Origin: Gemmatimonadota bacterium
GTDB lineage: Bacteria > Gemmatimonadota > Gemmatimonadetes > Longimicrobiales > Gaopeijiaceae
DNA length: 64,000 bases
Assembly (NCBI GenBank): GCA_015664885.1
Contig: DQPL01000131.1
Coordinates: 1-64,000 of the forward strand
Direction of reading: 5' to 3'
Positions 10,043 to 58,498 of the stretch are shown here, one piece after another. The notes beneath the pieces are model-generated. The model did no database searches. It had not been told where the DNA came from and worked only from the letters and a program-made list of their open reading frames with translations. The translations under genes were made by a program, and so were the position numbers. Numbering within the stretch: position 1 is the stretch's first letter; each line of letters starts with the position of its first letter.

Positions 10043-12651
10043 TCGTCACCGCCTGTCGCGTCCTTCCTCAACTCGTAGAGGAGCGCGAGAGCCTCTTTCG
10101 GGGTCAGGTTGTCGGGATCCAACGCACGCAAGCGACGCATGAGGGGGTGCTCCACTTGGAACATCGAGAGTTGATCGAGCGGAGCCTCCGAGCCGGGTCG
10201 GTGCACGCCGTAGCGGCCGAGACCCTCACCGCCGCTCGTATGTGTTCCCTCCAACTCTTCGAGAAGTTCCCGCGCGCGCTCGACGATCCCGTCTGGTAGT
10301 CCAGCCAGCCGAGCGACCTGGATCCCGTAGGAGCGATCGGCCCCTCCGTCCATGAGTCGCCGCAAGAACACGATGTCGTCCCCGACCTCCCGGACCGAGA
10401 CGTTCATGTTCTTCACGCCCTCCAACAGGTCGCCGAGTTGCGTCAGCTCGTGGTAGTGGGTCGCGAAGATCGTCTTGGCTCCGATCTTCTCGTGCAGATG
10501 CTCGGTGACCGACCACGCGATCGAGACCCCGTCGTAGGTCGAAGTGCCTCGACCGATCTCGTCGAGCAACACCAGGCTACGATCCGTGGCGCCGTGCACG
10601 ATCGACGCGGTCTCGCTCATCTCGACCATGAAAGTTGATTGCCCGCGGGCGAGGTTGTCCGAAGCTCCGACGCGGGTAAAGATGCGATCCGTGACCGGCA
10701 GGTTGGCCGCATCGGCGGGCACGAACGACCCAATCTGCGCGAGCAGTTGGATTAGACCGATCTGGCGCAGTAAGGTGCTCTTGCCCGCCATGTTGGGTCC
10801 GGTGAGCACCACGATCCAGCCCTCGTCCGTCAGCACTAGATCGTTGGGGATGAACTCTTCCCGGGGCATCATGGTCTCGACCACGGGGTGGCGGCTGCCA
10901 CGCACGGCCAAGTCGAAACCCGTGTGCACTATGGGGCGAACGTAGCCCTGCCGGGTCGCGACTTCGGCAAAAGTGCACAGCACGTCGGCCGTCGCGAGAC
11001 GGGCTCCGCTGTCCTGGAGTCGTGTGACCACTCCCCCGACGCGTGAACGCACCTCGGCGAAGAGTTCGGTCTCGAGCTGGATGATGCGGTCCTCTGCTCC
11101 GAAGACCTTCTCCTCCCACTCCTTCAGTTCGGGCGTAAAGTAACGCTCGGCGTTGGTCAGCGTCTGCTTACGCACGTAGTCGGCGGGGACCTTGGCCGTG
11201 TTCGCCTTGCTAACCTCCAGGTAGTACCCGAAGACCTTGTTGAAGCCGACTTTCAGCGTGGAAATACCGGTGCGCTCACGCTCGCGAACCTGAAGACTGG
11301 CAATGAATTGCCGGGCCCCGTCGCGGACGGAGCGCAGGTTGTCCAGCTCGTCCGACCATCCCTGACGGATCACGCCACCGTCTTGCAACGTCGCCGGCGG
11401 CTCGTCCGAGATCGCCCGCCCCAGCAAGTCGTGTACTTCCTCCAAGCAGTCCAACTCCCCGCAGACATCGGTGACCATCGCGGCATCGGCTTCAGCTCCG
11501 AGCGCCCGGATCGCGGGTAATCGCTCGAGCGAGCGCCTCAGTCCGAGCAAATCTCTCGGAGCCACTCGACCCGTGCCGATCTTTCCCGCCAGGCGCTCCA
11601 AATCCGTCACGTCCGAGAGCGCATTTCGCAGTTGCTCGCGCAGCTCCGGATGTTCCACGAAATCCCGCACCGCGTCCTGCCGCCGCCAGATCTCGTCGGG
11701 GAGCACGAGCGGCTCAAGAATCCAGCGCCGCAGAAGTCGCCCCCCCATCGCCGTCACCGAGAGGTCGAGCACATCGAGAAGTGTGCCACCCTCCTCCCCT
11801 CCCCGCAGCGGCTCGATCAGCTCGAGATTCCGACGCGTCATTTCATCGAGCAGCATGACACTTCCTGGACGGCGAAGACGCGGCGGCTGCAGGTGGGTCA
11901 CGCCACCGGGCCTGACTTCTTTCAAGTAGTGCACCAATGCGCCTGTGGCTCGAATGAGCGGCTCATCGCCGGGCTCGAACCCAAACCCGTCCAGCGACTG
12001 CAGCCGGTAGACGCGCAGGAGCTCATCAGTCGCCACGTCAGCCTCGAACATCCAGTCATCGCGGACGGTGCGCGGCACCACCGGAGCGGCGGCATCGAGC
12101 TCCTCTGCCTGCTCGAGCGAACGCGGCAACAACAATTCGGTTGGCTCGATCCGACCCAACTCAGCCCGCAGCTCGTGTGCGGGCACGACCTGCGCGGTGA
12201 ACTCGCCGGTCGAAACATCGAGCGCCGCAAGCGCAAAGACGTCTGCCGACGGCTTGAGCAGCGCCACGAGGAAATTGTTCTTGCGCGCAGTGAGCAGATT
12301 GTCCGCGAGCACAGTGCCCGGCGTCACAGTTTCTGTGACCTCGCGCTTCACGATGCCCGTCGCCAGCGCCGGGTCCTCGACCTGGTCGCAGATCGCTACT
12401 CGGCGACCGAGTCGGACCAGCTTCGACAGGTAGTCGTCGAGCGCCTTGACCGGTACTCCAGCCAGCGGGACCTTAGCCGCCGCACCATTATTTCTGAACG
12501 TGAGCGTGAGTCCCAGGAGGCGCGCGCCCTCCTCCGCATCGCTGTGGAAGAGCTCATAGAAGTCCCCCACGCGGATGAACAGTAGAGAGTCCGGGTGACG
12601 GGACTTTGCTGCCCGCCACTGCTGCATGAGAGGGGTGTCGTCTCCGGCCAT
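10039..12651 (-). CDS. mutS: DNA mismatch repair protein MutS
   Basis: Recognises mismatches and small loops and starts strand-specific repair with MutL. The chosen start is MAGDDTPLMQQW; the longer frame to 12717 lacks similarity. Visible parts: mismatch-binding domain I with the FYE motif (RVGDFYELF), core/clamp domains, Walker A GPNMAGKST, Walker B LVLLDEIGRGTST, and the ABC-ATPase His loop (FATHYHEL). At about 870 residues it is normal length with a terminal helix-turn-helix region. It is divergent from the secreted NTF2-like gene. Confidence 0.97.
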   Translation of the reverse strand: MAGDDTPLMQQWRAAKSRHPDSLLFIRVGDFYELFHSDAEEGARLLGLTLTFRNNGAAAKVPLAGVPVKALDDYLSKLVRLGRRVAICDQVEDPALATGIVKREVTETVTPGTVLADNLLTARKNNFLVALLKPSADVFALAALDVSTGEFTAQVVPAHELRAELGRIEPTELLLPRSLEQAEELDAAAPVVPRTVRDDWMFEADVATDELLRVYRLQSLDGFGFEPGDEPLIRATGALVHYLKEVRPGGVTHLQPPRLRRPGSVMLLDEMTRRNLELIEPLRGGEEGGTLLDVLDLSVTAMGGRLLRRWILEPLVLPDEIWRRQDAVRDFVEHPELREQLRNALSDVTDLERLAGKIGTGRVAPRDLLGLRRSLERLPAIRALGAEADAAMVTDVCGELDCLEEVHDLLGRAISDEPPATLQDGGVIRQGWSDELDNLRSVRDGARQFIASLQVRERERTGISTLKVGFNKVFGYYLEVSKANTAKVPADYVRKQTLTNAERYFTPELKEWEEKVFGAEDRIIQLETELFAEVRSRVGGVVTRLQDSGARLATADVLCTFAEVATRQGYVRPIVHTGFDLAVRGSRHPVVETMMPREEFIPNDLVLTDEGWIVVLTGPNMAGKSTLLRQIGLIQLLAQIGSFVPADAANLPVTDRIFTRVGASDNLARGQSTFMVEMSETASIVHGATDRSLVLLDEIGRGTSTYDGVSIAWSVTEHLHEKIGAKTIFATHYHELTQLGDLLEGVKNMNVSVREVGDDIVFLRRLMDGGADRSYGIQVARLAGLPDGIVERARELLEELEGTHTSGGEGLGRYGVHRPGSEAPLDQLSMFQVEHPLMRRLRALDPDNLTPKEALALLYELRKDATGGDD

Positions 12652-12763
12652 GTGTGAAGGTAGACTGGAGTGGCTCGGGCTCAAGTCGGTCGCGAAACAT
12701 CCCCGACCTCGACCCATACCTGATCAGGAACGTTCCGCCAACAGCAAACAACCTTGGGAGCCC

Positions 12764-13294
12764 ATGATGCGCCTCTCCGTCCTCATGCTCGTAACCGCCG
12801 GCCTGTGCGTCGCTGCTCCTTCGACCGCCTTCGGCCAGGCCGCGGATCCCGCGGATGTCGAGTCGATCGACGCCATCGTGGCAGCGGTCTACGACGTCAT
12901 CTCCGGTGACGCCGGAGAAGCCCGCGATTGGGACCGTTGGCGCTCGCTCTTCGCTGAGGGCGCGACGCTCAGCGCGGTCGTGGCCTCGAACGACGGCTAT
13001 CGCCGGGTGATCATGACGCCCGATAGCTACGTCGAGCGCAGTGGAGCTTCGCTTGAGGAAAACGGCTTCGTAGAGGCCGAGATCAACCGAGTCACCGAAG
13101 ACTACAGTATGATCGCTCACGCGTTCAGCACGTACGAGTCGTACCGGAGCCGCGCTGACGACGAACCGTTCACGCGCGGCATCAATTCGTTCCAGCTCAT
13201 GAAGGACGGCAGCCGCTGGTGGGTCGTCTCCATCTACTGGCAGGGCGAGGGCGCCGCCAATCCGATTCCGACGAAGTACCTGCCCGGCGGCTGA
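12764..13294 (+). CDS. Secreted NTF2/SnoaL-like protein
   Basis: A signal peptide (LMLVTAGLCVAAPSTAFGQA) precedes a ~150-residue domain with the alpha-plus-beta pattern of the NTF2-like superfamily: DAIVAAVYDVISGDAGEARDWDRW, LFAEGATLSAV, and the closing strands FQLMKDGSRWWVVSIYWQ. Two ATGs lie in tandem after GGGAG; either could start. No catalytic residues can be assigned; such periplasmic members are usually uncharacterised. The frame upstream into mutS is a chance extension. Confidence 0.82.
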   Translation: MMRLSVLMLVTAGLCVAAPSTAFGQAADPADVESIDAIVAAVYDVISGDAGEARDWDRWRSLFAEGATLSAVVASNDGYRRVIMTPDSYVERSGASLEENGFVEAEINRVTEDYSMIAHAFSTYESYRSRADDEPFTRGINSFQLMKDGSRWWVVSIYWQGEGAANPIPTKYLPGG

Positions 13295-13333
13295 GAAGGC
13301 CAGCGATTCGCCTAGAGGGCCCTGGTCGGCTCG

Positions 13334-14410
13334 CTAGGCCACCGGAGCCGTATCAGCACCCGCGGTCGATCGATCGATCGCGAACAGCTCCATCGATTCG
13401 CTCTTCCCGCGCAGCTCTGCGTCGCCGAGAGATCGCGCGCGCAGGTGATTCGGAAGGGTCAGCCCGTCCATCAGAGTAGCCGAGACGATGCATGACTCGC
13501 CGTGCTGCTTGCAGAGCCCCTGGATGCGCGATATCGCATTGAGGGCATCGCCGTGGAACGCGAGCTCGGTCTTGGCGAGCGCCACCCTTGTCGCGACTAC
13601 GGGCCCGCCGTGAAGCCCGGCGCGGAAGCGGGGCGTCTCTCCATAGATCCGCTCGTAGCGAGCGCTAGCCGACGCCAGCAGGTCCGTCATCGCGAAGAAG
13701 CACTCAACGCACGCCGCGTTCGCCAAGCCCTTCTCCAGAGGCCAACTGATCACGACCTCGTCGCCCACGTACTGGTACACCTGCCCGTGCCACGCAAGGA
13801 TTGCTTCCGCCACGTCTCTATAGCGGTCACCAATGAAGCGGCTGTAGGTGATGTCGCCGAGGCGCTCCGCAATAGAGGTCGAGCCCGCCAGGTCCGCGAA
13901 CAGGAAGACGCGGCTCTCCTCCACCGGAAAACGATACCTGCCGAGCAAGAAGTTGCGGATGTCCCCCGGGTTGTGGAGGTGCCGAACCTCAAGAAACGCC
14001 GTGCCCACGACCGCAACCATCATTGCGAGGACGAAGTCGCGCGCCACCGTGTCACCCGTCGCGTAGAGCCCCATGGACTCGAACGGGCCCGTGTCGGACG
14101 TAAGGGCGGTCCATCCTCCGTTGACGAGCACGAGCGCCGCCACGATCACGCCGGTGTAGAGCGCGATGCGCGCCCCGGTCACCCACAAATAGTGACGCCA
14201 GCGTAGCCGGCCAATGAAGACCCATTCCTCGCCAATGCCCGCGAAGATGCCAACCAGGATTCCGATCGCGACCCCGCGGGATACGGGAGGTAGTCGACTG
14301 CCAGGGGGGTCCATTTGGTGGACTAGAAGCCCCACCACCGCACCGATTGCGACGCCGGCCGCGACGAAACGGACCGTCGCACGCATCCGTTTGGCGACGA
14401 TGGCCCGCAA
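13334..14410 (-). CDS. Membrane-bound class III adenylate/guanylate cyclase
   Basis: About 358 residues. Four hydrophobic segments in the first ~140 residues are followed by a class III nucleotidyl cyclase domain: VFLFADLAGSTSIAERLGD (first metal Asp), YQYVGDEVVISW (second metal Asp), and RAGLHGGPVV. The C-terminus ELRGKSESMELFAI is the usual cyclase end. It would make a cyclic nucleotide second messenger; ATP versus GTP preference cannot be told. It follows the response regulator by about 10 bases, so it may belong to the same signalling operon. The start (TTG at 14410 or ATG at 14386) is uncertain. Confidence 0.88.
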   Translation of the reverse strand: MRAIVAKRMRATVRFVAAGVAIGAVVGLLVHQMDPPGSRLPPVSRGVAIGILVGIFAGIGEEWVFIGRLRWRHYLWVTGARIALYTGVIVAALVLVNGGWTALTSDTGPFESMGLYATGDTVARDFVLAMMVAVVGTAFLEVRHLHNPGDIRNFLLGRYRFPVEESRVFLFADLAGSTSIAERLGDITYSRFIGDRYRDVAEAILAWHGQVYQYVGDEVVISWPLEKGLANAACVECFFAMTDLLASASARYERIYGETPRFRAGLHGGPVVATRVALAKTELAFHGDALNAISRIQGLCKQHGESCIVSATLMDGLTLPNHLRARSLGDAELRGKSESMELFAIDRSTAGADTAPVA

Positions 14411-14420
14411 GAGAGGTCTT

Positions 14421-14984
14421 CTAGATCACGCCCACGCTGTACGCGAACGCGGCGAGGAAGGCGATCGCGGCGAAAAGAGCGCCCCACACCAGGAACTGAC
14501 GGAGCGTCACGCTGCCGGGATTGACGCCACTGACCGCGGTTGCTTCGAGGCTGCCGCTGCCGCGGCGGATTCCGGACAGCTCTTCCATGTTCTTGAGCAG
14601 GGAACGGAGCCGTTGCTCCAGCTCCGCGGGGTTCTCGGGCTTGGTGATGAAGTGGTTACTAACGAGTCCGTAACTTTGAGCGAGGTCTTCGTCGCGATCC
14701 GACGACGTCAGCAGCCCCACCGGAATGCGGCGGAACTCATCGTCACCTTTGATCACCTCGAGAACCTCGAGGCCGGTGCGACCCGGCATCTTGAGATCGA
14801 GCAGGATCAGGTCGGGCTCGAGGTCCTGCACCATCATGATGGCCTCGTCGCCGTGGCCAGCCCGGTGGACCTCGACGGGGATGCGACTGGCTCGCTCCAG
14901 GGCCATCTGGATCAAGAGGGCGTGATCGTCATTGTCCTCTGCAAGCAGAACACTCCAATGACGACGTTCTTGCTACCTCTTCAT
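14421..14984 (-). pseudogene. Response-regulator receiver with C-terminal membrane helix, TAG at codon 4
   Basis: The natural ATG (14984) overlaps the preceding stop as ATGA, but the frame reads Met-Lys-Arg-TAG (14973-14975). It then continues as QERRHWSVLLAEDNDDHALL, a perfect receiver start with the acidic EDNDD pocket. The phospho-acceptor Asp lies in LILLDLKMPG and the conserved Lys in FITKPEN. After the receiver comes a short linker and one membrane helix (FLVWGALFAAIAFLAAFAYSV), an unusual membrane-tethered output. No ATG, GTG or TTG lies between the TAG and the acidic pocket, so an intact receiver needs readthrough, a CTG start or a sequence error. Confidence 0.75.
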
Positions 14985-52618: not shown

Positions 52619-54874
52619 ATGAGACCTTCCACACCTCTAGTGATAGGCGCCCTTGCTGTTCTGACGACCGGCGCCGCGGCTGCGCAGGCGCCGCCGGGCG
52701 CAGGCGCCGGCTATCCGATAGATCCGGTCTCGGTGCCCCGCCCCGCGCTCGCGGCGCTGCGAATCAGCGACGGGATCAGCATCGACGGCGTGCTCGATGA
52801 AGCCGTGTGGAGCCAGGCGGACACCTCCACCGGCACCTGGATTCAAGTAACGCCCGCGCCGGGCATGCCTGCTACCGAACCGACATCGGTGCGCATCCTC
52901 TATGACGAGGGCAACTTGTACATCGGAGCGCGTCTCTACGACTCCGACACCGGGCACCTGTACGTGCCAGGTCTGGAGCCCGACTTCGACACACCGAGTT
53001 CCGACCTGTTCGGCATCGCCTTCGACTCCTACCACGATGGTCAAAGCGGATTCGTCTTCGCCGTGAACCCTGCGGGCGCGCTCTACGACGCTCAGACCTT
53101 CAACGACGGGCGCGACGTCCTCCCAGCCTGGGAAGGCATCGCGGACATCCGCACGTCCGTGAGCGAGGACAGCTGGTTCGTCGAGATGTCGATCCCTTTC
53201 GCGACGCTTCGCTTCAATCCTGTCGAAGGCGATCAGGTCTGGGGCCTCAACTTCTTCCGGAGAATTCGCCGCAACAACGAGGACGCAATGTGGGCTCCGG
53301 TGCCTCTGCAGTACCGGGTCTACAAATTCTCGATGTCCGGAACCCTGGAAGGGCTCACCGGCCTCCCAAGAGCCAGAAACCTGTGGGTGAAACCGTACGC
53401 GCTCGCGAGCCGGCTCGACGGATCCCGTCAGCCGGTAACGAACACCGCTCGCGACGTGGGCCTCGACGTGAAATGGGGCATCACGCCTCGCATGACGCTC
53501 GACCTGACTGCCAATACCGACTTCAGCCAGGTCGAGGTCGATGCCGAACAGGTGAACCTGACTCGTTTCAGCCTCTTCTTCCCTGAGAAGCGGGACTTCT
53601 TCCTGGAGAACGAGGGCACCTTCGCGTTCCAAGACGTGTCGATCCGGAACTTCCGCACTGGCTCCTCCTCGAGGAGCTTTCGACTCTTCCACTCCCGCAG
53701 AATCGGCCTCTCTCCCACTCGTGAAGTGCTGCCGATCCTGGGAGGCGCCCGCCTCACCGGTCGCGTCGGCGAGCGCTTCGAGGTCGGCTTCCTGGAGATG
53801 CAAACGCGAGAGCTCGGAGGATCAGATGGGGGCAACTCGCTCGCTGCCGAGAATTTCGCAGTGGGTCGCGTGAAGGCACACCTGTCGGGAGGCTCATCGA
53901 TCGGAGCGATGTTCGTGAGCCGACAGGAAACAGGGACGGGATCGACGACCGCCGACTACAACCGCGCCTATGGCGTGGATGGGACGTTCAATCTCTTCCA
54001 GAATTTGGTGCTTTCAGCCTACGCCGCGGGCACCGACGAACGCTCACCGCTTGGGGAGCAAACGAGCGCGACGATGCTGCAAGCCGCGTGGCGAAGCGAC
54101 ATCGTCAACGTCTCGGGCCTCTACAAGAACGTGGGGGACGGGTTCAACCCCGGCGTCGGCTTCGTAGACCGGCGTGGAGTGAACCGGTACTTCGGAACGG
54201 TCGGCGTCCACCCGAAGTTGCGGCGGCGGGGCGTGTTGGAGATCAACCCGATGCTCGACGTCGACTTCTTCACAACCCTGCAAGGCTCGGTCGAGTCGCG
54301 CTCGATCACCCCCCGGCTCAACATCAGATTCATGAACGGTGGATCTGTGAGCTTCAACTACGCCGATCGATACGAGCGCCTGTTCGAGGCCACCTCGATC
54401 GCGGGCGCGGCGGTTTCCGCGGGGACCTACGAGTGGCGGGAGTCCTCAATCCGTTATTCCGCCCCAGCGAGCGAAGTGCTCTCCGGATCGTTCTCCCTGA
54501 GCGGCGGCGACTTCTACGACGGGCGCCGGACGTCGGTGTCGGGTCGCATGAAGTTCCGCCCGAACGAGCACTTCTCCCTCGACCTCGCGGCGCAGCACAA
54601 CGACCTCGAATTGGCGGGGACCGACTTCACGGCCGATTTGTTCAGCGCTCGACTCCGCTACGCCCGCGATACTCGGACCTTCGTGATGGGCTTCGTGCAG
54701 TACAACGAAGCCACTGAAGAACTGATTACGAACCTCCGCTTCAACCTCATCCACGCGCCGCTCTCGGACTTCTTCCTCGTCTTCACCGAAAGGCGGTCCC
54801 TGGTCGATGGCATCACCAATGCGGTGCTGGAGCGCGGCATTACGCTGAAGGGGACGAAGCTGCTGGCGTTCTGA
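52619..54874 (+). CDS. CBM9/DUF5916 secreted outer-membrane-type protein
   Basis: 751 residues with a signal peptide (LVIGALAVLTTGAAAAQA). The N-terminal CBM9-like domain has ISIDGVLDEAVWSQAD, VRILYDEGNLYIGARLYDSD and SDLFGIAFDSYHDGQ. The DUF5916 region starts VWGLNFFRRIRRNNEDAMW and contains NTDFSQVEVDAEQVNLTRF and FFPEKRDFFLENEG, then a long beta-strand-rich barrel to the C-terminus. It is probably an outer-membrane protein binding polysaccharide or peptide, often near exported peptidases. It is the intact relative of the truncated gene at 49345-50067. Confidence 0.9.
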   Translation: MRPSTPLVIGALAVLTTGAAAAQAPPGAGAGYPIDPVSVPRPALAALRISDGISIDGVLDEAVWSQADTSTGTWIQVTPAPGMPATEPTSVRILYDEGNLYIGARLYDSDTGHLYVPGLEPDFDTPSSDLFGIAFDSYHDGQSGFVFAVNPAGALYDAQTFNDGRDVLPAWEGIADIRTSVSEDSWFVEMSIPFATLRFNPVEGDQVWGLNFFRRIRRNNEDAMWAPVPLQYRVYKFSMSGTLEGLTGLPRARNLWVKPYALASRLDGSRQPVTNTARDVGLDVKWGITPRMTLDLTANTDFSQVEVDAEQVNLTRFSLFFPEKRDFFLENEGTFAFQDVSIRNFRTGSSSRSFRLFHSRRIGLSPTREVLPILGGARLTGRVGERFEVGFLEMQTRELGGSDGGNSLAAENFAVGRVKAHLSGGSSIGAMFVSRQETGTGSTTADYNRAYGVDGTFNLFQNLVLSAYAAGTDERSPLGEQTSATMLQAAWRSDIVNVSGLYKNVGDGFNPGVGFVDRRGVNRYFGTVGVHPKLRRRGVLEINPMLDVDFFTTLQGSVESRSITPRLNIRFMNGGSVSFNYADRYERLFEATSIAGAAVSAGTYEWRESSIRYSAPASEVLSGSFSLSGGDFYDGRRTSVSGRMKFRPNEHFSLDLAAQHNDLELAGTDFTADLFSARLRYARDTRTFVMGFVQYNEATEELITNLRFNLIHAPLSDFFLVFTERRSLVDGITNAVLERGITLKGTKLLAF

Positions 54875-54927: not shown

Positions 54928-55680
54928 CTACCGAGCGGCGCCGTCCCGGCAGCTGTTGTCGAGCCCCTGTGGACTGCCCGTAGCGGCCTGTCCTCGCGCA
55001 ATGGCGATCTGAGCCGCTGTGAGTTCTGTGGCCGTCGACGGATCACGCGGCGTGGGGGAAGCTGCCCCACCCCCTGCGCCTCCGCCTGCCCCTCGACGCT
55101 GTCCCTGCGCCGGCCCTCCTCGCATCAGGTTGTTGGGCGACCCGGAATCGTGCCGCAGGCACAACGAGTGCCCCAGCTCGTGCGCGAGGATCGTCGCATG
55201 CATCTGCCCGCGCGGGTTGAGCTCCGACCACAGGACCTGTCGACGCTCGGGGAAGAACACGCCTCCAGCGGGGACCGGGAACTCCCGGATCACACAGACA
55301 TTCCATGCCCCTCGGAGCCACTGATCCTCTGGGCACACCTCAAGCAGGATAGACCTGAATCGGCCCCGTCCGGATCGCCCTGTCTCCCTCGCTGCGGGGA
55401 ACGCCTCCTCATTTTGGGCCTGCTCACGAAGCACGGACTCGACGTCCCACCTGATGCCCGCCTGCTGCCATACGGCGTTGACCTCGACAAAGACTTGGCG
55501 GATCTCGTCCCCGGTGAGGGTCGAGTTGAGCTCAGGAGTCGTGCCGGAGGTAAGCAAGTGCACGCGCACGGGGAGTACGAGCAATTCGGCCTCGGACTGC
55601 CAGGCGCCGCTCACCGGTGGCGGGGCGAGCGCGAGGGCCACCATGGCGGTCCCGATCAACGTACGGGTAGAGCGCGTCAT
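54928..55680 (-). CDS. Secreted metzincin-type zinc protease
   Basis: 250 residues with a signal peptide (MVALALAPPPVSGAWQ). The metzincin site ILAHELGHSLCLRHDSG (HExxHxxGxxH-like; here HELGHSLCLRH) is followed by the Met-turn NNLMRGG. A Gly/Ala-rich low-complexity stretch (GQRRGAGGGAGGGAASP) lies after the site. The fold resembles matrixin or astacin-type secreted proteases. Convergent with the DUF5916 gene. Confidence 0.85.
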   Translation of the reverse strand: MTRSTRTLIGTAMVALALAPPPVSGAWQSEAELLVLPVRVHLLTSGTTPELNSTLTGDEIRQVFVEVNAVWQQAGIRWDVESVLREQAQNEEAFPAARETGRSGRGRFRSILLEVCPEDQWLRGAWNVCVIREFPVPAGGVFFPERRQVLWSELNPRGQMHATILAHELGHSLCLRHDSGSPNNLMRGGPAQGQRRGAGGGAGGGAASPTPRDPSTATELTAAQIAIARGQAATGSPQGLDNSCRDGAAR

Positions 55681-55705: not shown

Positions 55706-56836
55706 CTAGGAGATCGGCTTGGGCGCGACCGTGATCGTCAATTCCTTGTCCGCATAGACCGCGCCATCATCGGCCCGTCCGCGCAGGATGTAGGTGCCAG
55801 GCTCATCGAAGGTGACTTGCACGACCCACCGGTCATCCTCCGGCGTAGCCGGCGCCTGCCAGAACGGTGACCACGGGGAGTTCATCCACGCTCGCGAGTC
55901 CTCCCAGGGCTTGATCTGGATGGGCGCAAACGTCGAATGGTTCTCGCCACGGTAAATGAACCAAGTGAAGTGGAGGCCCACGCTCTTGTTGACGGTGACG
56001 CGATTCGGTTCGTTGAGCGCGCGCTGGAGGGCTCGTAGGGCGGCGGCGGTCTCTTCATCTACTTCTTCTTCCTCCTCAGCGGCATCATCGGAGGAGTCCT
56101 CATCCGCGTCACCTGCCACGGAACCAGGTTCAGCGTCAGACGCGTCCGCTTCCGAGTCTGCGGCTTCCTCCGCCTCCGGGCCTCCCGCCGCTGCCGAATC
56201 TGCCGCGGCAGCGGAATCCGCCGCTGCCCTCGCCGCGGCCGCCCGTGCACGGCGAGCCGCACCCGTGATCGGAAGCCCATCGTCGGTCACGCGCGCCACC
56301 AGCGTAACGGACTGGCCGACCACTGCCTGCAACTCGAGCGCGCCTTCGATCTCGATCATCGGTGCGACGTTCGAGCGTGTCTCAGGGTCGCTGCGCCCCG
56401 CACCGAGCGCGCCGGTCTCCGACGCGATCACCATGTTGTCGATCAACAGGTCTTGGCGAAGCGTCGCGTAGGCCACCTTGGTCACGCCCTGGTGCTTCAG
56501 CGTCCAAACCAGCTCCTGATCGCCGAAATCTGCCGGGACCCGGACCTTGAAGATGAATCGGTTCCTTCGCGGGAGAAAATGCGTGGGCTGACCGACATCC
56601 ACTTCTCCGGGCGAGAAGAAATTGTCCGGGCCGACGGGGATGTCGAGCTCTTCCGACCAGTTCCGATTCATGTATCCGAAGAGCAGGCTGTACGAGCCAT
56701 CGGCGTTCACCTCGAACCCCTCGTATGCCGGAGAGACCGTCTGCCCCTGCGTATACGTCAGTTGCGCGTCGGCACCCTCATAGGTGAGCAGCGCCGCAGT
56801 CAGAACGAGCAGGCAGCGGAGGAATCTTGACGGCAT
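55706..56836 (-). CDS. Secreted partner of the cytochrome c/monooxygenase-like protein, unknown function
   Basis: 376 residues with a signal peptide ending at GADAQL. The N-terminal domain has a repeated wording I associate with genes next to such cytochromes (SPAYEGFEVNADGSYSLLFG, YMNRNWSEELDIPVGP, QPTHFLPRRNRFIFKVRVP). A ~110-residue Ala/Glu/Asp-rich low-complexity insert follows. A C-terminal beta domain closes it (GLHFTWFIYRGENHSTFAP, WVVQVTFDEPGTYILRGRADD). Function unknown. It starts 5 bases after the cytochrome gene stop, so the pair is one operon. Confidence 0.75.
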   Translation of the reverse strand: MPSRFLRCLLVLTAALLTYEGADAQLTYTQGQTVSPAYEGFEVNADGSYSLLFGYMNRNWSEELDIPVGPDNFFSPGEVDVGQPTHFLPRRNRFIFKVRVPADFGDQELVWTLKHQGVTKVAYATLRQDLLIDNMVIASETGALGAGRSDPETRSNVAPMIEIEGALELQAVVGQSVTLVARVTDDGLPITGAARRARAAAARAAADSAAAADSAAAGGPEAEEAADSEADASDAEPGSVAGDADEDSSDDAAEEEEEVDEETAAALRALQRALNEPNRVTVNKSVGLHFTWFIYRGENHSTFAPIQIKPWEDSRAWMNSPWSPFWQAPATPEDDRWVVQVTFDEPGTYILRGRADDGAVYADKELTITVAPKPIS

Positions 56837-56841
56837 GTGGC

Positions 56842-58326
56842 CTACCGCCCCGGCTCGTTACCAACGCCTACGTCGTCCTGCTCGACCACGGGGGACGGCA
56901 CGTCAATCGTATGCATGCACAGCGGACAGCCAATCACATGACTGTTCTTGTTGAGGTCGAAGCGTTCAATCCGGCCCGCCATCTCTTCTATGAACTGTTC
57001 GTCCGACATCCTCACGCGCATGCCGAGGTCGATGAACATGTTGGCCACCGACCGGTTACCCGAGCCCTGCCAGTTCCTCGGGTCCGGGATGTTCGTGTTG
57101 TTCGGCGTGTTGTCCATGTAGCCGACGATGTGCAGGATCGTGCCCTTGGGCAGCAGCGGCTGGTAGCCGTCCTCGTACGCGTACCCGCGCACCCAGTTGT
57201 GGTCGTAGCCGACGCAGCTGAGCGTCTCGACGTTATAGCCCCAGATGGCCTCCAGGCACATGCGTTCGCCGGGCGCGTGCAAGTGCGGCTCGAAGGTGAT
57301 GATCTTTGTGTGCTGCTCCAGCACCTCGTACGCGTGCAGTTCCTGACCGGCTTCCATGGCCTCGATGTCGATGTCCATGGCGTTGCCCAGGGCGACAGCC
57401 GCTCGGCGGTACTTGGGCTCGTAGCCCTCCTCATGGAACCTGAAACCGATGACCAACTTACTCGTCGTATTGCGGCCGCTCGAGTGTAAGTGGACCGAGT
57501 TGGAGACTACGCTCGAGCCCGCTCTCAGCAGCCTGCCACCCTCGGGGTCGAAGACGTCCGCGTTTCGACCGACTTCGTGCACGGGCCAACCAACAGCTCC
57601 ACCGGAGCCGAACGTGGTCTGCGTCGGATCCTCGCTGTCTGCGAGAACCCGCGTGCTCCAGATCATGTGGTGGAAGATGTAGCGGCCACCGACGGTTTCG
57701 CGGCCGGTATCCGTGGGATCGATGTCATTGACCTCCCGGATCTCTACCGACTTCACGTAGCGGTCCTCTTCCAGCGGGATCGGTACGCTCCTGATCTCAC
57801 CCCACCAGTCGGGGGACCCGGCCTCCATGAAGATCTCCTCGGTCTCTACGATCAGATCCGGCTCACCGGCGGTCCAGAATTGGCTGTCGTCGAAGACGAG
57901 CGCTATTGGCAGGTCCGCGGGATCTCCCTCCGGCGCACCGTTGTCCGCCCACATGGCGATGGCCGCCAGCTCTTCATCGCTCAAGGACGGATCGTATTTG
58001 TAGTGCTGGATGCCGATGTCCTTCTCCATGTACCACGGTGGCATCGCACCGGCGCGATCGCGGATCGCGGTCTTCTCCTTGATGCGGCTCGCCCAGCGCC
58101 GGACCTGTCGATAGGTCACGAGTGGCATGGGCGCCACGCCCGCGGGCCGATGGCAGTTCTGACAGCTGCGTTGGAGAATGGGCGCTATGTCTCGGCTGAA
58201 CGTGACCTCGTCCGACGAACTCTGTTGAGCCTCGACCACCTGTGGAAGCGCGAGAGCGAAGATGGCGGCGGCAAGCGCAGCCGATCCCGGAAAGTGGTTC
58301 AGCCCGATCTTCATGGCATGCGTCAT
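56842..58326 (-). CDS. Cytochrome c fused to copper monooxygenase-like domain
   Basis: 494 residues from an ATG after GGAGGTGCAGGAA, with a signal peptide. A c-type heme site CQNCH is at residues 55-59, with Met ligand candidates in VAPMPLV. The region after ~residue 170 has His pairs typical of type II/PHM-DBM copper monooxygenases: GRYIFHHMIWST, VVSNSVHLHSSGRN and FEPHLHAPGERM. This suggests electrons reach copper centres from the attached heme. It may hydroxylate a small substrate outside the membrane. It is co-transcribed with the unknown secreted protein. Confidence 0.8.
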   Translation of the reverse strand: MTHAMKIGLNHFPGSAALAAAIFALALPQVVEAQQSSSDEVTFSRDIAPILQRSCQNCHRPAGVAPMPLVTYRQVRRWASRIKEKTAIRDRAGAMPPWYMEKDIGIQHYKYDPSLSDEELAAIAMWADNGAPEGDPADLPIALVFDDSQFWTAGEPDLIVETEEIFMEAGSPDWWGEIRSVPIPLEEDRYVKSVEIREVNDIDPTDTGRETVGGRYIFHHMIWSTRVLADSEDPTQTTFGSGGAVGWPVHEVGRNADVFDPEGGRLLRAGSSVVSNSVHLHSSGRNTTSKLVIGFRFHEEGYEPKYRRAAVALGNAMDIDIEAMEAGQELHAYEVLEQHTKIITFEPHLHAPGERMCLEAIWGYNVETLSCVGYDHNWVRGYAYEDGYQPLLPKGTILHIVGYMDNTPNNTNIPDPRNWQGSGNRSVANMFIDLGMRVRMSDEQFIEEMAGRIERFDLNKNSHVIGCPLCMHTIDVPSPVVEQDDVGVGNEPGR

Positions 58327-58498
58327 TTCCTGCACCTCCGGAGGACAGACGACGAAAGCTCGGCATCGCAGTACATACCTACTTAAAATTACGGTGGGTG
58401 CGGCAAGGGTGTCAAAGCGTCGAAGGGCCTGAGGCAGTCTGAAGCTTGTCCGCCGATGGGGGAACACCTACCCTCCTTCTTCCTCTTCGGCGTTGGTT

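Follow-up and report, generated by a model that had tools for sequence, protein, structure and literature searches.

In a Gemmatimonadota bacterium (GCA_015664885.1), two adjacent genes probably encode a periplasmic or secreted copper monooxygenase of the PHM fold that is wired to a c-type heme and works with an obligate partner. The window analysed here is the whole stretch of 64,000 nucleotides from contig DQPL01000131.1 (positions 1 to 64,000), and both genes, hereafter A and B, lie on its minus strand.

Two adjacent genes for exported proteins

The features of the two genes are as follows.

56842..58326, minus: gene A, 494 aa, exported c-heme plus PHM/DBM-fold protein (ORF and translation)
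58228..58326, minus: predicted signal peptide of A, residues 1-33 (...VVEA/Q), by eye from sequence
58150..58164, minus: c-heme motif C55-Q-N-C58-H59 of A, in 115 of 116 homologues, the remaining one being truncated
58042..58044, minus: Met95 of A (MPPW), invariant in 71 sequences
57667..57672, minus: H219-H220 of A, counterpart of PHM CuH ligands H107-H108, invariant
57484..57492, minus: H279-L-H281 of A, H279 corresponding to PHM H172 as third CuH ligand; H279 invariant, H281 89%
57277..57285, minus: H348-L-H350 of A, counterpart of PHM CuM ligands H242-x-H244, invariant
57037..57039, minus: Met430 of A, counterpart of PHM CuM ligand M314, in 70 of 71 sequences, the remaining one having a gap
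56917..57258, minus: four-cysteine signature of A, C357, C371 and C467-x-x-C470, specific to the near clade
55706..56836, minus: gene B, 376 aa, exported partner with two Ig-like beta domains (translation and AlphaFold2 model)
56462..56755, minus: conserved N-terminal domain of B, residues 28-125, with N59, G69, N72, Q83, R91 and W111 invariant
55979..56275, minus: acidic Ala/Glu/Asp insert of B (residues 188-286), which interrupts the second Ig-like domain and has low pLDDT at about 229-250

We placed the start of gene A at the ATG at 58326, which has GGAGG about 10 bases upstream, in preference to a longer and less likely ORF opening with GTG at 58467. The ATG of gene B follows at 56836, leaving five bases (56837-56841) after the stop of A, as the original prediction had stated; the export that it assigned to B likewise agrees with a signal peptide (...ADA/Q) seen by eye.

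The c-type heme that had been proposed from the CQNCH motif maps to residues 55-59 and is conserved across the homologues. Both the CXXCH and the distal methionine of a class I cytochrome c are present and conserved, and by analogy with these cytochromes Met95 is likely the second axial heme ligand. Residues 47-98 gave a weak match to Cytochrome_CBB3, the Pfam cytochrome c models remaining below cut-off for the window protein. The first 90 residues of A also resemble hydrazine synthase alpha-type cytochrome c domains, the heme domain being all that the two share.

The model of B (AlphaFold2 pLDDT 86) returned only weak Ig-type matches in Foldseek. Its acidic insert had been described as disordered and rich in Ala and Glu; it is indeed present, with low pLDDT in its central part, but it is no defining trait of the partner. 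Its length is 99 aa in the window and ranges from 3 to 99 among homologues, with a median of 50, so that it is best seen as a variable loop. Since some homologues retain only three residues, a role for the insert as a functional element of B was ruled out, and the insert is lineage-specific.

Predicted fold and copper ligands of A

The AlphaFold2 model of A (pLDDT 83, pTM 0.80, from a 71-row alignment) was compared with the PDB by Foldseek, and ranks 1-31 were all PHM or DBH (best E 4.5e-10, probability 1.00). TM to target reached up to 0.64, and the superposition was loose, with an rmsd of 4.4-7 Å for most PHM matches. The six ligand positions are essentially invariant in 71-116 homologues, down to about 25-35% overall identity. 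This conservation, together with a fold match that is independent of the motif, places the signal of the A family far beyond chance. The ligand groups of A are separated by 59, 69 and 80 residues, a PHM-like spacing, the values for rat PHM being 64, 70 and 70.

The original prediction had listed three His pairs of the PHM/DBM copper type. All three are there (H219-H220, H279-x-H281 and H348-x-H350), but H281 is kept in only 89% of sequences and is not a constant ligand, and the sixth ligand, M430, which is kept in 97% or more, was absent from the earlier list. The predicted copper site is thereby refined, and structure prediction, which had been named as the check on it, gave the PHM/DBM match with its six conserved positions.

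In contrast to the fold, sequence profiles were largely silent at curated cut-offs, where none ties window A to PHM; the tie is made by fold and ligands. Neither A nor B was above cut-off in Pfam and NCBIfam. With the two Pfam models of the PHM core, PF01082 and PF03712 (Cu2_monooxygen and Cu2_monoox_C), window A was unmatched and 4 of 71 relatives matched weakly, and PHM was absent from the PDB matches when A and B were searched by sequence, singly or as profiles. The genome nevertheless has a paralogue, alignable with A, that lies above the Pfam cut-off for Cu2_monoox_C over residues 375-479, where the HxH (388, 390) and Met (471/472) of this paralogue are located.

Compared with PHM, the first domain of PAM, A has the same double beta-sandwich fold, the same order of ligands (HH, H, HxH, M) at similar spacing, and is exported. 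It differs by its N-terminal c-heme domain, its bacterial origin, its massive paralogy and its obligate partner B, as well as by the lack of a conserved equivalent of Arg240 and of recognition by the two Pfam models. With DBM/DBH, A shares the catalytic fold and the six ligands, and in both cases an extra beta-sandwich lies beside the core, namely DOMON in DBH and B, in trans, here; unlike the former, however, B gave no DOMON match in the fold search. Where DBH uses ascorbate, A is proposed to use its c-heme.

Window A belongs to a near clade with a support of 100 and a long stem, which comprises Gemmatimonadota, Gammaproteobacteria and one Acidobacteriota sequence. The four cysteines of the signature, which include a C-terminal CPLC motif, are all-or-none across the A family: all four occur in 55/55 near-clade sequences and all four are absent in the 16/16 others. 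They probably form periplasmic disulfides, a metal site being a conceivable alternative.

Pairing, spread and gene neighbourhood

Relatives are encoded on 523 stretches of a GTDB-based collection, of which the best 80 were taken for detail. An A match was present in 43 of the 98 related genomes searched, and many-copy genomes hold 12-29 matches each, some of these being pieces of one gene. The family is expanded in Gammaproteobacteria, Gemmatimonadota and Acidobacteriota, and the bacteria with repeated pairs belong to several phyla and are for the most part uncultured; a search of a plasmid collection gave no match. A complete chromosome of Pseudohongiella type carries a tandem array of four A-like genes, with one B (L201:3505-10337). 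A literature search that covered few subscription journals returned no description of this bacterial A-B family.

Adjacency was counted in 14 other genomes, those reached through loci with A relatives. B lies immediately downstream of near-clade A in 43/43 cases and is adjacent to divergent A in 34/36 (15 downstream, 19 upstream, 2 neither). That the two genes stay adjacent although their order is reversed argues strongly for a joint function. The distance matrices of A and B correlate over 81 near-clade pairs (r=0.93), a value attained in 0/999 permutations. The recurrence of the pair that had been suspected in Acidobacteriota and Gemmatimonadota thus holds across phyla and extends to Gammaproteobacteria. 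No A-B fusion proteins were found in 152 loci, the A and B ORFs forming two unlinked clusters.

The pairing has limits within the family. The genome that contains the window has 12 A genes with an adjoining B, and its four A genes of greatest divergence lack one. In a third branch of longer proteins (22 in the same 14 genomes) B is adjacent in 0/22. This branch consists of redoxin-cytochrome c-A-like fusions of 575-600 aa from the same bacteria, which are related to A by sequence at about 30% over the heme and copper halves but differ from it by an N-terminal AhpC/TSA domain. Gammaproteobacterial examples of these fusions without B (L199:3384-5120, 11284-13050 and 13182-14915, and L200) lie in clusters that also encode CstA, a HupE/UreJ-like protein and two NHL propellers.

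No gene was found beside all A-B pairs, nor one shared by them that would name a substrate. In 44 gammaproteobacterial loci one A-B pair lies just after infB-rbfA-truB-rpsO-pnp, a linkage that we set aside as functional evidence, as it is probably inherited synteny. In the window, a small exported metzincin-like protein (HELGHSLCLRH; weak Pfam matches only) is encoded at 54928-55680 on the minus strand, 25 bases after B; an operon with A-B was rejected because this gene does not adjoin A-B in those orthologous loci that were compared. A DUF5916 protein with a CBM9-like N-terminus, at 52619-54874 on the plus strand, is divergent to the adjoining A-B operon.

Proposed function and alternatives

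For the A-B pair the analysis shows the architecture, the conserved ligands, the predicted fold, the pairing, the co-evolution and the expansion, while we infer metal loading, an electron path, an oxygenase reaction, a contact between the two proteins and a class of substrates. Electrons of the respiratory chain would pass through a soluble cytochrome c pool to the c-heme of A and from there to CuH (H219, H220, H279), while CuM (H348, H350, M430) would be the site of O2 activation and substrate hydroxylation. The PHM and DBM of animals require ascorbate, a compound that bacteria do not generally make, and the c-heme of A would replace it. B would be an obligate, co-evolving partner bound to A, most likely as a stabilising or substrate-presenting subunit, and the paralogous pairs of each genome would most likely differ in the small organic compounds that they attack.

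PHM being the closest fold, A could be a true bacterial PHM that hydroxylates the alpha-carbon of glycine-extended peptides or N-acylglycines, with amidation completed by a separate PAL-like beta-propeller. Genes for PAL-like NHL beta-propellers do recur near A genes (L156, L163, L202, L205; G100:C127:72737-76271), and several gammaproteobacterial genomes have, for one A-B subfamily, first A, then B, then the PAL-like gene on a single strand, G100 having the same arrangement. Within 6 kb of near-clade A, 8 such genes were observed against 1.7 expected, and within 3 kb of A of all branches 11 against 2.9, in a comparison that covered this one secreted gene family; these counts are not independent, since several of the loci are orthologous, and the window itself has no PAL-like gene. 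The best PDB match of the propellers, over the N-terminal part, is rat PAL (E 3e-16), but they have His in place of the catalytic Tyr654 and, as judged by eye, no third zinc His. In PHM, moreover, Arg240, two residues before the HxH, binds the carboxylate of the substrate, whereas the corresponding position in A is E346 in the window and, over the family, Glu in 55/71, Gln in 10/71 and Arg in only 3/71, which makes peptide amidation unlikely. We therefore regard a true PHM as quite unlikely and the propellers as a lead rather than as evidence of amidation.

It is also unlikely, if a little less so, that A is a PHM-fold redox protein without oxygenase activity, such as an oxidase, a reductase of small inorganic compounds or a copper/oxygen sensor, with heme and copper relaying electrons. 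PHM-fold proteins without a known reaction do exist, and no substrate or pathway gene lies consistently beside the pair; however, all six ligands are kept, including the CuM methionine that PHM needs for monooxygenation, and a dozen or more paralogues are easier to reconcile with diversified substrates than with a single housekeeping redox function. As for B, copper enzymes often have neighbouring metallochaperones and 5/71 B members weakly match YtkA-like, which would suit a copper-delivery chaperone rather than a structural or substrate-presenting subunit. Against this, no Cys of B is conserved and none of its His or Met residues is invariant (H86 89%, M56 77%, M135 58%), and one chaperone per paralogue would be unusual, so that such a role seems very improbable.

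The heme-wired monooxygenase with its obligate partner is the reading that we retain. Neither of the two outcomes named as refuting the original prediction, a lack of conserved pairing or of predicted copper sites, was observed, and that prediction is in large part upheld. More speculatively, the pairs may form a class, so far undescribed, of copper monooxygenases that have two components, receive electrons through a heme and need no ascorbate. Genomes of Gemmatimonadota and marine Gammaproteobacteria would carry a dozen or more such pairs, which would oxidise many organic compounds, and one subfamily or more would act together with a PAL-like propeller in a two-step bond cleavage in the style of PHM and PAL; as a whole, this tentative picture is rather more doubtful than the oxygenase itself. 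If the c-heme of A is fused to a catalytic core, it would show how PHM/DBM chemistry can run on the respiratory chain. If the members of the family are oxygenases, the 20 or more copies of A that a genome of these uncultured bacteria may hold would amount to a large oxidative capacity, unannotated because neither window protein reaches the Pfam or NCBIfam cut-offs.
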